The position numbers and the translations under genes were made by a program. Below, in pieces: positions 57,502-64,000 of a DNA stretch of 64,000 nt. This stretch comes from Gonapodya prolifera JEL478 (lineage: Eukaryota > Monoblepharomycota > Monoblepharidomycetes > Monoblepharidales > Gonapodyaceae), in assembly GCA_001574975.1 (NCBI GenBank), contig KQ965774.1, positions 260,319 through 324,318 on the forward strand, written 5' to 3'. The notes beneath the pieces are model-generated. The model saw only the letters and a list, made by a program, of their open reading frames with translations. It was not told where the DNA came from and ran no database searches. The stretch's first letter is position 1, and each line of letters starts with the position of its first letter.

Positions 57502-59382
57502 ATGGCTTCATTACAATTTCGACACCTGCCACTTGCGCCTCTCATACAGACTTTTGTTGCGGCTTCCTCATCGCACTTAGCGGCATCGTCTGTGGCTGCT
57601 GCCAGCGTATCTTTGGTGTCACGGGGAACTTCAGTTCGGAAGTTCCGGGGAACACCGCGGCCGCAAACGGCATCGGGCACCAGGAACCTATCAAATGGAA
57701 CGCGCAGGAACAACGGGGCGCTGGGACAAGACCGGGACTCGTCTCGATGGGCAGTGAACGAAGAGGAGGGAAGCACTTTCCGGACAACCCACTTACGTCT
57801 CCCGAGTGAGACGGGAAGAATATTATTGGGCAAAAGCCCTCTGCTGGGAGCAGGACCGGTTGTTTCTAGCGGGGTAATGCGATGGAACTCCACACTGAGT
57901 GGTGCCTACCTTTTCACAGTTGGATCTTCTGGAATCCACACATTAGTGCGCTCGCCAGCATCACAGTATCTCCTTTCAAAGTCTCTTTCCACCACCCCGT
58001 TCACTCCTTCCTCTCTCGCGACTCCTGTTGTTGCCCTCCCTACTTCCCTCGGGTCATCCCCTGTCGGTAGCGTCCGACACCAATCCCAAGTGTCTTTCGT
58101 TCAGAAATTCAGAGAATCGATCAGTCGACAAGTTCAGGAGAACAAAGAGTTTCAGGAAGGAGTGAAGCAGCTCAACGAGGGCACAAATCAACTGGCGGAG
58201 TCCGATGCTTTTCAACGCGCGAAACAGGCTGCGCAGGTGACGGGCCAGGCCGCCGGGAAGGTCGTAGAAGCCGTTGAAAAGGTGCTGGAAAGCGACGCAG
58301 CGAAGAAGGCGGCTGAAGTCACAGGCAAGGCGGCTGAAGTCGTCATAAAGGTGAGCGATAAGAATCAGTCGTGACTTCAACCTGCCGACTTCACCTTGCC
58401 TCACACACGCAGGTCGCGGAGCCCATTGTCGACAACCCCGCCACCCGCGCGGCCGCCTCGGCAGCTCAAGCGATCCACCAATCCGTCCAAGACCCTAACT
58501 CCACCTCCACCCTTCGCTACACCGAGCTCAAATCCGCCCAAGAGCGCGAAAGCGACTTCCTTGCGGGTCGAGTCGTACCCCTCGAGCAAATGCGACCCGC
58601 CGTGAAACCCAACGAAGAGGCCACGGGTGTCGTTGTGGACCAGAAGAGCCGGGCGCAACAGCAGTGGGAAGAGTGGAAGGAGTCCAACCCGTTGGCGAAG
58701 GCGTGGCTCGGTGTTACGCGTTCAGTGGAGGAGAGTGACCATCCGCTAGTCGAGAGGCTGAGGGACTTTGCCGGGTCGGTGGGACGTGTGTTTGGGGAGA
58801 GCGAGACCGCCCGGGTTGTCAAGAGGTTCAGACAGGTGGACCCAAACTTCCGCACAGATCGATGGCTCGTTCAAGCGCAGAAATGGATCATTCCGGAGAT
58901 CATGGAGGCGTATTTGAAGGGTAACGATGCCAAGCTGAAGGAGTGGTGCGGCGAAGTGGTGAGCTGAAGCATCTACGATTACCCCAATTCGATCTCTGAA
59001 CTCTCTTCGCCGATCTCTTTAGACATACAACGTTCTGACCGCCGGCCTGAAAGCGCAACGGGAACAAGGTCTCGTCTCCGACTGCCGCCTGCTCGACCTT
59101 CGCAACGTGGACCTCCTCTCTGCCAAACTCATCGACTCCACGGCAGCTTCGGCCGGGGAGCTCCCTGTTCTCGTCGTGTCGTTCCAAACTCAGGAGGTGC
59201 TTGTGTTCAGGAACCGGAAGGGCGAAATCAAGGTTGGAAGAGAGGACCACATCGAACATTGCATGTACGCGGCCGTGTTCACCAAGGATCAGGCGATTGA
59301 TCCCATGACACCGCTGAATGACCGGACTCTGGGTTGGAGGATGATTGACCTTGCGAAGCACTCGGCGCGGGCGGGAGTTTGA
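57502..59382 (+). CDS. TIM44: TIM44, mitochondrial import motor anchor
   Basis: Three exons (57502-58350, 58413-58958, 59023-59382) join in phase to give 584 aa. A long Arg/Ser/Ala-rich leader precedes FVQKFRESISRQVQENKEFQEGVKQ, typical of the Tim44 N-terminal domain. An Ala/Lys-rich helix with VTGQAAGKVVEAVEKV follows. The C-terminal Tim44/NTF2-like domain has NPLAKAW, VKRFRQVDPNF, WIIPEIMEAYLKGND, LKEWCGE, YNVLTA, LLDLRNVDLLSAK and LVVSFQTQEV. TIM44 docks mtHsp70 at the TIM23 channel in the matrix. The leader is longer than usual and a second in-frame ATG at 57882 could be used. The gene is intact. Confidence 0.88.
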
Positions 59383-59390
59383 AGTGGTGA

Positions 59391-59556
59391 CTGGACTGTG
59401 TCTGGAGGTAGAAAAAGGATTCATTGTAACGTATATTCCGCATTGTATAGAAGCGCAAGATTTCATATAATTGGCAACGTCAAGTGAGACTGACTCAACC
59501 GAGAGCATCATATTATTGACGACGTGAAGCTCGTGAATCTTGCTATCAAGGTTTTC
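59391..59556. repeat. Duplicated 3'-flank, unit 1
   Basis: Directly after the TIM44 stop lies a block (tggac, gtctcnaggt, gattcattgtaa, gcattgtatagaagcg, aatggcaac, gtgaatcttgc, atcaagg) that reappears at 60345-60575 with about 75-80% identity by eye. Confidence 0.65.
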
Positions 59557-60204: not shown

Positions 60205-60344
60205 TCGCTCTTGCCAAAAAGCCAAAAAGGTTTTGAATTTTCCAGGGAGTTTAAGGAAAAATGGTCGCAGAGTCGAAGATAGACTGAAGCGCTTGGGTGG
60301 CATGGAGGGCTTGGTAGGGACAGATCTACAAGAGTCGGTGTGAA

Positions 60345-60575
60345 GTGAGGATTGGACAATGTCTCCAGGTGGAAAATGGATTCATTGTAATGCACATTCT
60401 GCATTGTATAGAAGCGCTAATTTACACATAAATGGCAACATCATCTGAGACTGAACTTGTAATCTGAAAATTGTGAAGCAGTGGTGACATGTTACGCCAA
60501 ATTGCAGCAATTGGTGACGCAACGGATTCATTCAGCAACGTGGAGCTTGTGAATCTTGCCATCAAGGCTTGGTCA
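60345..60575. repeat. Duplicated 3'-flank, unit 2
   Basis: Second copy of the 59391-59556 block, with an extra internal segment before the gtgaatcttgccatcaagg end. Confidence 0.65.
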
Positions 60576-60754
60576 CAAGTTTCACATACCCCCAGCCAGG
60601 GGAGTACCCCCACCTCTTAATCTTCTACTTTTGAATAACAGGTTTGATACTTTAAATATTTTTGTATGGATTTTGGTGATTGAATTTTTAAATACCCTAC
60701 TTATATTTGTTAAACCAGTAACAAGCCCAACATGTTTTCATATTTCAGATTGGT

Positions 60755-61000
60755 CCGAACTTGCATCAGGAGAGAGGGTTGCATTTGGCACAAGTTCAGT
60801 CCAAACTTGTGTCAAATGAGTGGTTCTAAAAGGTGCTCATCTGACACAAGTTTGGACCAAACTTGGTCCAAACTTGTGTCAAGGTGACAATGCACTCCTG
60901 TAGGAAGTTTGGTCTGAACTTCCTACAGGAGTCCATGGTTGTTCCGGCACAAGTTTGGTCCAAGTGCCAAATGCAATCCTCTCTCCTGATACAAGTTCAG
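60755..61000. repeat. Foldback element with 35-bp arms and internal palindromes
   Basis: The outer arms are 60755-60789 and 60966-61000, reverse complements at about 33 of 35 positions. Inside are a perfect 18-bp-arm palindrome (60843-60880, 2-nt spacer) and a perfect 16-bp-arm hairpin (60894-60909 with 60917-60932, 7-nt spacer). Variants of the words caagtttggtcc and cttcctacaggagt recur in both orientations to 61025. This is typical of foldback or MITE-like DNA. Confidence 0.8.
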
Positions 61001-61150
61001 ACCAAACTTCCTACAGGAGTGCATGGTTGTATTGGCAAAAATTTGGTTGGAAATGAGCACCTATTGCACCATGATACCCACACAAGTTCACATTGATATT
61101 GCTGTGATGTTTAAAGTTTCACAAGTGCATTTTAATGGAACTGGTTTTAC

Positions 61151-62560
61151 ATGCAGATACAGCTTGGGGTGGTCAAAGTCTCTACCAAGGCAAAGGAACT
61201 GGAGAATTTTGCCAGAGGTGCAACTATTTTGAAGACTGGGGATGTGATTCAGTTCCTTGTTGCTGTGAAAGGTAACCAACCAGGGCAGTTCTCTTGGCCA
61301 AGTGCCCACTATTGGAGGGTTCTTTTGGCTTCCAGTATGTTTGGACCTTCAAAATTGCACAAGTCAGAACATCTGGCAAGTCCTGCTTATGACTTAATGT
61401 GGAATCCTATTAACTTATTATCTTCTAGAAAATCCAACCCCAGGGTGAAAAGGGGCCCTCCATGTACTTCACTACTCAGATTTCAATTGCTGTGTGGACT
61501 GAAATCCTCCTTCTCTGTACCAACACTGGTGACTCTGTTTTGGCACCAACCGCAGGGAGTAGATCCCTTGCAATTGCTTCTGCTTCTCTTGGGCATCAAT
61601 TCTATGGCATGTCTTTAAGTGATGATTTACATAGTAGAGTTGACAGTCTTATTGCAAAGCAAAAGGATGCCTTTTCAAAGAATGCTGCATTGGCATTCTC
61701 CCAGTTTGTATCTTTGGTTTTGGTTGATGTGGGCTCAGACTAAATGTCTTGAATCTTACAGGTTGTATTGGAGCAACTGGAAGTTGTACCAATATGTTGC
61801 TCATAAATTCTGTTCCTTTGTGCCAGAAAAGTTCCCTTCAGAGAGGAGAGGAGGTGAAGGTGACCAAGAAAAGGAGGAGGAAGATGACCAACAGGATCTC
61901 TTCAAGCTGCCACAGGTTCCTAAAGATGGTATGTGCCCTGTGATTCCCTTTAAGGTTTTCATGTTCTGATTTGACATGTAGTGAAACAATTTATATTTGA
62001 TGAGGCACTGGAGGTTGGTGGAGATGATGGAGGGGAGGAGGAGGACACCAGCAATGCAAGTGATGATGAACATGAAGGTGAAGAGGTTTGTCACACTGCC
62101 ATCCACTAATGTGGAATATATAGAGTAGTATGAGTGTTGGGTATTAGCTGCTGTGCCACTACTGTAGCCGCGGTTTCAGATGTGCACACCTGCAGGATGT
62201 GCCCTAAGTTTGGCATCACGTTCCTGCCAGTGAGTTCCATGCACATTATGACTTGCTATGTATATTTGATCACACATACATGTTCCTGGAGATTACAGGC
62301 TCGTGCAGCTCACCTAGGTTGTGTAGCAAGGTTGTTGGTAAGTCTAATTGATATTTCCTGGATGTTTACAATCAACTGAACTTTGTTCTCATTTAAGTGG
62401 CAACCCCCCAAGGCCCAAGGCCAAGGGACACAGTATTGCTGTCACAGGCAGTACTTCAGGTGTAATNACACGTTCTGGTGCTGGAGGAGGTACTGTCACT
62501 GGACAGAAGAGAACAGATGATGAGGGAGCAGGATTAAGACCTTGTTGCTCTAGAAAGTAG
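61151..62560 (+). pseudogene. DNA methyltransferase-like gene in an AT-rich element, damaged SAM motif
   Basis: Coding segments in an AT-rich codon style run in order. They include KVSTKAKELENFARGATIL, then GPSMYFTTQISIAVWTEILL, then CTNTGDSVLAPTAGSRS and LAIASASLGHQFYGMSLSD. This last part matches the X-I-II region of N6-adenine/N4-cytosine DNA methyltransferases (VLDPxxGSGS...ALxLGRxFxGxE), but the SAM loop has Ala for Asp and Arg for Gly. Exons with Glu/Asp-rich sequence follow (PSERRGGEGDQEKEEEDD; VGGDDGGEEEDTSNASDDE), and the last ends at 62560. The first joins do not all close in phase, and an ambiguous base lies at 62467. No DPPY-type catalytic motif was found. It looks like a dying element gene. 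Confidence 0.45.
62112..62329 (+). repeat. Inverted duplication, left arm
   Basis: This block is the reverse complement of 62849-63060 at about 85-90% by eye. It contains a CxxC-bearing frame (DVHTCRMCPKFGITF) in the plus direction. Confidence 0.75.
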
Positions 62561-62848
62561 ACTAGTAAGACTGTAAAACTCAATGAAGAAACCCAAGCCT
62601 TGTGTAATTTTTCTGCAAGTACAAGTTAATAATTTGAGTTCTTGGAAGTGGGGGTACCTCCCCATATGGTGAGGCTATCTCTCTGGGGTGGGGGTATGTT
62701 AGCCGTGGAACAGCAAAAACTCCAGCATGGTGAAGTTTGGCCAGTACATGCGCCATCTTGTCAGATTGTACCAGACAGTGGACAGGACACCTTTAGCAGA
62801 GTTTGAGTCCAAGCTTCCATCCAAGTGGACTTTGTCATTAGAGGCATT

Positions 62849-63060
62849 TTGCTACACAACCTAGGTGAGCTGCACGAGCCTGTAAACTGCAGGAATGTGT
62901 ATATATGATCAGATGTACATAGCAAGACATAATGTGCACAGAACTCACGGAATGTGATGCCAAACTTAGGGCACGTCCTGCAGGTGTGCACATCTAAACC
63001 CGCGGCCACAGTAGTGGCACAGCAGCTAATACACAACACTCATACTACACTATATACTCC
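62849..63060 (-). repeat. Inverted duplication, right arm
   Basis: Reverse complement of 62112-62329; the same frame reads DVHTCRTCPKFGITF on the minus strand. About 520 nt separate the arms. Confidence 0.75.
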
Positions 63061-63846
63061 ATGTTAGTGGATGTCAGTGTGACACATTTGATCTGTACTT
63101 GCAGTCTCTTGGACGCATCTTTGTGGAGCTCCTTGGATTCTACGACCAACCCTATTTCCATACTCTCAAATTGCAGTCATATGGCAGTGTGCAGTGGGGA
63201 CAAATGGGAATTATTTGAAAAATGTTTGCGCAATCTATTGTTGCTGATGCCATGAAGATTAGACCTTGATTCCAGGGCATTATTGTCCATTTTAAAACGC
63301 AATGTTCTGTGTGTCAACACTTGGTCATGGTGCGAGTGCCCAAATATTTTTTGGGACCTTATGTTGGACATGACAACGATAAACATGGACCTCCCTTTGG
63401 GCGATCAGGTTGATGAACGGTCAAAGCAGCAGCAGAAGAAAGGTCACTTCTCCTGACAAATTCCCTTCAAGTGTGATTTGGTGACGAGCACCACTCCTCT
63501 GCACTGTGTTCGTCTTGTCACAGGTATTTGCAGCCAAAATTTGTGACCAACTATGTGCGCCGCAACACCGCAAAGCGGCGAACCTGATCTTGGGCGTTAA
63601 AGTGGTGCGCATTCAAGCAAATCACTTGGAATTGCAACACCAATGCGATTCAAAATATCCTGTACATTTACGCTCACACAGTTGTCACAGGAAATCGCCC
63701 CCCCTGGTTACCACCCTCCACCAAAAGGTCTCAGGTCGTGGTAATGACTGTCAGATTTTTTTTTCCCACCCCAGTTATATCTCCCCCCCCCACAAATAAG
63801 AATTCTTGGAGGAATGTTAAAGTGAACAGAAATATTGTATTCGAAA
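63061..63846. other. Element-like remnant region
   Basis: A plus-strand segment at about 63108-63225 reads LGRIFVELLGFYDQPYFHT before a stop and looks like a broken exon. Nothing else is recognised. Composition matches the island to the left. Confidence 0.35.
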
Positions 63847-64000
63847 TCATTGTTGGGCCTTCATGCGACAGAAAGCATAGAGCTCTTCTCGGTATCTACG
63901 AACATCCACCTGAGTCATTTGCGGGAGTGCAACATGCTCACCATTTGCTATCCGATCAAAATGTCCACCGTCCATGTGATTCTTACACACAAAAGATGCA
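63847..64000 (-). CDS. C-terminal end of an unidentified gene, cut by the window edge
   Basis: Reading leftward from the window end, 51 codons are open to a TGA at 63847-63849. The sequence includes CKNHMDGGHFDRIANGEH and VDVRRYREELYAFC, so it may hold a Cys/His metal site. The start lies outside the window, so identity is unknown. It may belong to the element-like island. Confidence 0.45.
   Translation of the reverse strand, partial: ASFVCKNHMDGGHFDRIANGEHVALPQMTQVDVRRYREELYAFCRMKAQQ

Follow-up and report, generated by a model that had tools for sequence, protein, structure and literature searches.

Ginger1 elements encode a transposase with a Ulp1 or OTU domain, have terminal inverted repeats of 40–270 bp and are flanked by 4-bp CCGG/CCGT target duplications, and 5-bp target duplications are described for TDD-4/5 (PMC2836005). 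The words 'methyl' and 'chromodomain' have zero occurrences in that paper on Ginger (PMC2836005). A different transposon, Sola1-1_Ec32 of Ectocarpus, carries an accessory gene for a ParB-like and N4/N6 methyltransferase protein on the strand opposite to the transposase (PMC12477816). According to the account in PMC12477816, which cites Iyer 2011 and Petroll 2025, similar proteins come from transposons of green and red algae; the cited work on red algae describes giant EnSpm elements that bear accessory genes.

Here we analysed the right end of contig C44 (260319–324318) of Gonapodya prolifera JEL478, a stretch of 64,000 bp referred to as the window, and searched the assembly of 47.6 Mb in 207 contigs. 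The Zn2Cys6 cluster family has 63 matches in this assembly, which suggests a fungal genome. The last part of the window holds a genuine mobile element: its kind is known, its combination new. The segment 60571–62712 is, with a probability of about 0.85 by our estimate, a non-autonomous DNA transposon with an internal deletion, of the cut-and-paste kind that uses a Gypsy-type integrase (Ginger-like).

Results

The AT-rich end of the window is a mosaic of repeats

The initial annotation, made from the letters of the window, treated 60600–64000 as one AT-rich island and probable mobile element that begins with a composition shift at about 60.6 kb. The shift is evident, since GC falls from 0.51–0.58 to 0.42–0.46 from about 60 kb onward, and homology sets the exact left edge of the AT-rich element at 60571. 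The DNA search of the genome showed that 60600–64000 is a mosaic of dispersed repeats and that three different repeats, rather than one element, make it up (Table 1). Scanning the window for Rfam families and tRNAs returned no match. Upstream, 59377–59554 and 60338–60570 form an imperfect duplication of host sequence (80–88%) that ends at the start of the transposon copy, and a 75% match of the second duplicate (60338–60570) on C32 stops at the same edge.

Table 1. Features at the right end of the window (positions in the window).
Feature	Position	Strand	Remarks
Internally deleted Ginger-like copy	60571..62712	+	2,142 bp long, 240 bp of them inserted
5' terminal inverted repeat, GGTCACAAGTTTCACATACCCCC...	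60571..60615	+	family pattern and inner inverted repeats
Central fold-back with seven AGTTYGGWCCRAACT palindromes	60747..61046	.	at 60747, 60793, 60849, 60860, 60906, 60952, 60994
Internal deletion junction	61180..61184	.	segment to 61181 = C44 element 1408–1627; next from C44 element 3987
Methyltransferase-like exon E2	61184..61369	+	open frame, 60/62 residues identical to C44 copy
Methyltransferase-like exon E3, SAM-binding motif I region LAPTAGSRSLAIASASLGHQFYG	61438..61698	+	PF01555 E=9.5e-5
Methyltransferase-gene exon E4	61766..61846	+	alignment with relatives
Dispersed 240-bp repeat, TGTCACACTGCC...GTGTAGCA	62089..62328	+	flanked by AGGTT duplication; site empty in C44 copy
3' terminal inverted repeat, reading inward TGTTCCACGGCTAACATACCCCCACC...	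62668..62712	-	family pattern
Different repeat	62713..63748	.	77–89% to C153, C43, C68; adjoins transposon exactly at 62712/62713
240-bp repeat, second copy	62850..63084	-	target duplication CATTT; empty-site sequence in C68
Start of second Ginger-like element, terminus TGTCAGATTT...	63749..64000	-	96–100% to C150, C78, C110

Compared with the longer copy C44:206897–212177, the window copy is 95% identical in its 5' part and 92–96% in its 3' part, and each of its termini has one mismatch to the family end pattern. About 2.36 kb of the longer copy, comprising the ParB-fold exons and the start of the methyltransferase part, are absent at about 61181, and the Ulp1 part is also missing; the window copy itself contains no transposase gene. 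Most likely, the window copy lost its transposase and ParB exons, retained its ends and palindromes and acquired the 240-bp insertion later.

The 0.2-kb inverted duplication of the initial annotation is indeed an inverted pair, 89% alike, formed by the two 240-bp repeats at 62089–62328 and 62850–63084. A single duplication event is rejected in favour of two independent insertions, which are flanked by separate 5-bp target duplications. Exact 5-bp duplications flank 16 of the 24 readable copies of this repeat (TGTCACACTG...GTGTAGCA). It occupies about 40 or more loci, has TG...CA ends and may be either a MITE or a solo LTR; it starts with TGTCACA, matching the start of the Ginger-like termini. 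The reading frame in 62713–63748 has no Pfam match. On its minus strand, the last segment, 63749–64000, carries the C-terminal end of a Ulp1-type protease, whose stop lies at 63847, and the segment belongs to an element that exceeds the contig end; its match on C110 extends into the final part of a Ulp1-like ORF, with Peptidase_C48 at E=0.025, below the cut-off.

Copies of the family share sharp ends

The family ends are sharp inverted repeats, TGTCNCA...ACATACCCCCA, in which the 5' ends are TGTCA and the 3' ends read TGTCC, with a length of 64 bp in C173 and about 45 bp in C44. The terminal pattern TGTCNCANNNNNNACATACCCCCA is present at 46 termini in the genome, against 0 for the reversed control pattern. 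Moreover, 60572–60750 was found again at about 20 places, with a mostly identical left edge, and the same 3' end (62712) stands beside unrelated flanks on C44, C49, C73, C150, C158 and C174. The genome search thus yielded many copies with sharp common ends, in line with the proposal that the sequence is a decayed mobile element of a family that bears a methyltransferase; the alternative of a domesticated locus is unsupported, because the sequence is multi-copy and internally deleted. As for target-site duplications, the outcome is divided among the six bounded copies: the 704-bp copy on C56 has a clean 5-bp duplication (AGAAC/AGAAC), and matching flanks are absent for the other five (window, C44, C80, C146 and C173), the window copy adjoining another repeat on its 3' side. 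The 4-bp CCGG/CCGT duplication of Ginger1 was not found in the flanks of these six copies. Many copies of the element 5' end are located close to the ends of contigs and face outward (C102, C155, C142, C129, C91, C29, C159, C70, C90, C132, C43 and C38), which may reflect breaks of the assembly within repeats or else a preference for subtelomeres.

A complete copy, C173:25424–33183, is 7,760 bp long with a near-perfect 64-bp terminal inverted repeat, and is laid out as two divergent genes with a palindrome array between them. Seven of the 16 methyltransferase stretches lie about 6 kb or less from a transposase match (C68, C109, C110, C126, C143, C173 and C174), and in five of these (C68, C109, C110, C126 and C173) the pair is divergent. 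Very probably, the full element measures about 7.8 kb and consists of terminal inverted repeats of about 64 bp, a transposase gene and a divergent accessory gene, in the Ginger-like class.

A palindrome array lies between the divergent genes

The fold-back noticed in the initial annotation consists of an array in which a 15-bp palindrome, AGTTYGGWCCRAACT, recurs, and the perfect palindromes and arms reported there were recovered (a perfect 2x19-nt palindrome at 60842–60881; arms of 37–64 nt). In the window the palindromes are mostly 42–56 bp apart, most commonly 46 bp, and positions 1–60000 contain no match to the core form with up to 2 mismatches. Exact sites occur genome-wide only on C30, C44, C80, C143 and C187 (control, 0), all of which bear element termini or transposase matches. 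Taking the window, C44, C30, C56, C80 and C146 together, the commonest spacing is 46 bp and the others range from 11 to 129 bp. Between the divergent genes of C173 there is a different palindrome, GCTACCGAWTCGGTAGC, mostly at 82–85 bp (controls, 0), of which decayed versions are found on C109. The two subfamilies therefore have unrelated palindrome sequences in a common layout: odd length, a central W, regular spacing and a position between divergent genes. The palindromes at C173:29310–29911 have a GAWTC centre, which falls within GANTC, possibly by chance; GANTC is the known site of CcrM, whose structure is the nearest solved one for the methyltransferase domain.

Palindromes are prone to slippage expansion, and the array might be a structural by-product only, that is, fold-back arms or a hotspot of replication or recombination with no protein partner. 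We consider this rather unlikely: two subfamilies with unrelated sequences keep the same layout, and the palindromes are retained even in the short copies on C56 (704 bp) and C80 (834 bp). That the palindromes are regularly spaced, lie at this position and persist in such tiny copies makes them a candidate binding site, and we infer that the ParB-fold protein encoded by the accessory gene is the obvious candidate partner.

The accessory gene encodes a ParB-methyltransferase fusion

In the protein encoded by the leftward gene of C173, a ParB/Srx-fold domain at the N-terminus is followed by a beta-class amino-methyltransferase-like domain at the C-terminus. The ParB fold was matched by profile to SerK (0.0029), SbnI (0.02) and Noc (0.14), in a range to 0.19, with a DGxHR motif in common; the single-sequence match is weak (PF02195, E=0.12). 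The spliced structure first proposed for the gene in the window agrees with its relatives, with which the exons align in frame. For its methyltransferase domain, PF01555 matches window positions 61447–61623 with E=9.5e-5 and 22.9 bits, under the curated cut-off of 26.7, and copies elsewhere in the genome pass this cut-off (33.2 bits; 6.6e-8 on C146). With the family profile, the closest solved structures are CcrM (E=1.8e-5) and a cytosine-N4 methyltransferase (5.3e-5). The dN/dS between subfamilies is 0.14–0.31, where dS approaches or has reached saturation in most pairs, and is 0.20 for the closer pair C149–C68; the accessory protein is therefore under constraint.

The catalytic motif IV, (D/N/S)PP(Y/F/W), is conserved at the expected place in none of 13 copies. 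Its position is occupied by LIVLHVHA, LIVFHIHP, LIVLQTNS, LIVLDFPS or VIINFPS, and the sole SPPF (C173/C109) is in an earlier exon and is unconserved. The loss of motif IV rests on alignment rather than on structure, because exon joining was manual and the stretch around motif IV was drawn from separate exons. In motif I, G-x-G-S is kept across subfamilies, the acidic residue is replaced by A, I or L, and the window copy has a G to R change. Judged from these sequences, the methyltransferase domain appears catalytically degenerate. If the accessory protein were instead active as an N4-cytosine or N6-adenine methyltransferase, it could mark the DNA of its own element, for example at the palindromes, and thereby control silencing. 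This would be consistent with the conserved G-x-G-S, the purifying selection, the amino-methyltransferases as closest solved structures and the palindrome centres GAWTC and GGWCC, which resemble methyltransferase sites; the state of motif IV and of the acidic residue in motif I argues against such an enzyme, and we regard it as improbable. With motif IV lost, binding of DNA or SAM would be a likelier role for the methyltransferase-like part than methylation, and binding rather than methylation may be the function under purifying selection.

The transposase gene indicates the class of the element

With its exons joined, the rightward gene of C173 matches Integrase_H2C2 (1e-6), rve (3.5e-12) and Chromo (5e-10), followed by a Ulp1-type protease. 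The rve and Integrase_H2C2 matches are both over the Pfam cut-off, and that of Peptidase_C48 (0.0018) is below it; further transposase matches gave Chromo at 4.4e-9 and Peptidase_C48 at 3.7e-4, the latter on C30 and just over the cut-off. Integrase and protease apparently form one gene. After the integrase core of C173, a possible GPTW segment may correspond to the GPY/F motif, a Ginger1 trait. The integrase would cut and insert the element, as the ends and the domains suggest. The class, which the initial annotation had left open, is largely answered by these longer relatives as Gypsy-integrase-type and Ginger-like.

Polintons, too, have an rve integrase with a chromodomain and a Ulp1-type cysteine protease, and the same proteins here would fit a shrunken Polinton/Maverick-like self-synthesising transposon. 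We rejected this very unlikely origin, since the integrase has an H2C2 zinc finger, a domain absent from the integrases of Polintons (PMC2836005), integrase and protease are apparently one gene, and the complete 7.8-kb copy on C173 has two genes and no polymerase-sized reading frame. A remnant of an LTR retrotransposon or of a DIRS-type element with a methyltransferase, the latter being the link first suggested, shares the TG...CA ends and the Gypsy-type integrase with chromodomain and is scarcely credible, as the terminal repeats are inverted and not direct, the transposase is an rve integrase, and none of the 50 RVT_1 matches in the genome lies within the related elements, the nearest (C126:52515–52994) being about 2.3 kb past the transposase exons of C126 and probably outside that element.

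Discussion

Like Ginger1 and Ginger2/TDD, the Ginger-like element of G. prolifera has a Gypsy-type integrase, an H2C2 zinc finger and a C-terminal Ulp1 protease and is without a reverse transcriptase; its terminal inverted repeats are within 40–270 bp, it has a TGTNR-like end (here TGTCA) and it is of a similar size class. Differences from Ginger are a chromodomain between integrase and protease, and the divergent ParB-methyltransferase gene with the palindrome array. In addition, CCGG/CCGT, typical of Ginger1, is absent here, and the one duplication is of 5 bp, as in TDD-4/5, Ginger2 duplications having 4 bp. The element, which works like Ginger and was set against it by published descriptions, is filed as Ginger-like and not as Ginger1.

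A ParB-methyltransferase cargo is already known from algal Sola1 and EnSpm transposons, among them Ectocarpus Sola1-1_Ec32. As in Sola1-1_Ec32, a single protein, encoded on the strand opposite to the transposase, joins a ParB-like domain with an N4/N6 methyltransferase-type domain; the ParB-like domain comes first, as is characteristic of such accessory proteins of transposons. The carrier in Ectocarpus is a 21.5-kb Sola1, whereas here it is a 7.8-kb Gypsy-integrase element in Gonapodya prolifera. The N4CMT of bdelloid rotifers (PMC8885841) is likewise a eukaryotic beta-class amino-methyltransferase linked to transposons and chromodomains. However, N4CMT is an active, chromodomain-fused host gene (PMC8885841), while the G. 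prolifera element has its chromodomain within the transposase and a methyltransferase part without motif IV. In the literature searched, with the algal counterparts known by description, what appears to be new is the Ginger-like carrier, the host group, the absence of motif IV from a protein under purifying selection, and W-centred palindromes that are specific to each subfamily and spaced at 46 or 84 bp.

The pairing of a ParB-like protein with palindromes inside the element is offered as a testable proposal and not as a result. The ParB-fold protein, which is under purifying selection, would bind the array of 15–17-bp W-centred palindromes as a dimer and act as an element-encoded regulator or anti-silencing factor, with the methyltransferase part binding rather than methylating; taken jointly, these points form a tentative reading. 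Bacterial ParB-parS systems also place a gene for a ParB/Srx-fold protein beside regularly spaced 15–17-bp palindromes. The resemblance goes no further, as no ParA partner was seen here and a partition function is not expected. A ParB-parS-like module in a eukaryotic DNA transposon, in which the fusion of ParB/Srx and degenerate methyltransferase recognises the W-centred palindromes, its specificity co-evolves between subfamilies, and it keeps the element unsilenced or clusters its copies, is a more speculative and rather doubtful extension.

In the literature searched, ParB-methyltransferase cargo of transposons is reported only in algae, on carriers of other classes. The same cargo in a different transposase class and a non-algal host suggests recurrent recruitment of the module. 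Furthermore, the subfamily-specific palindrome arrays provide a candidate binding site, which makes the proposed function of 'bind your own transposon' directly testable.
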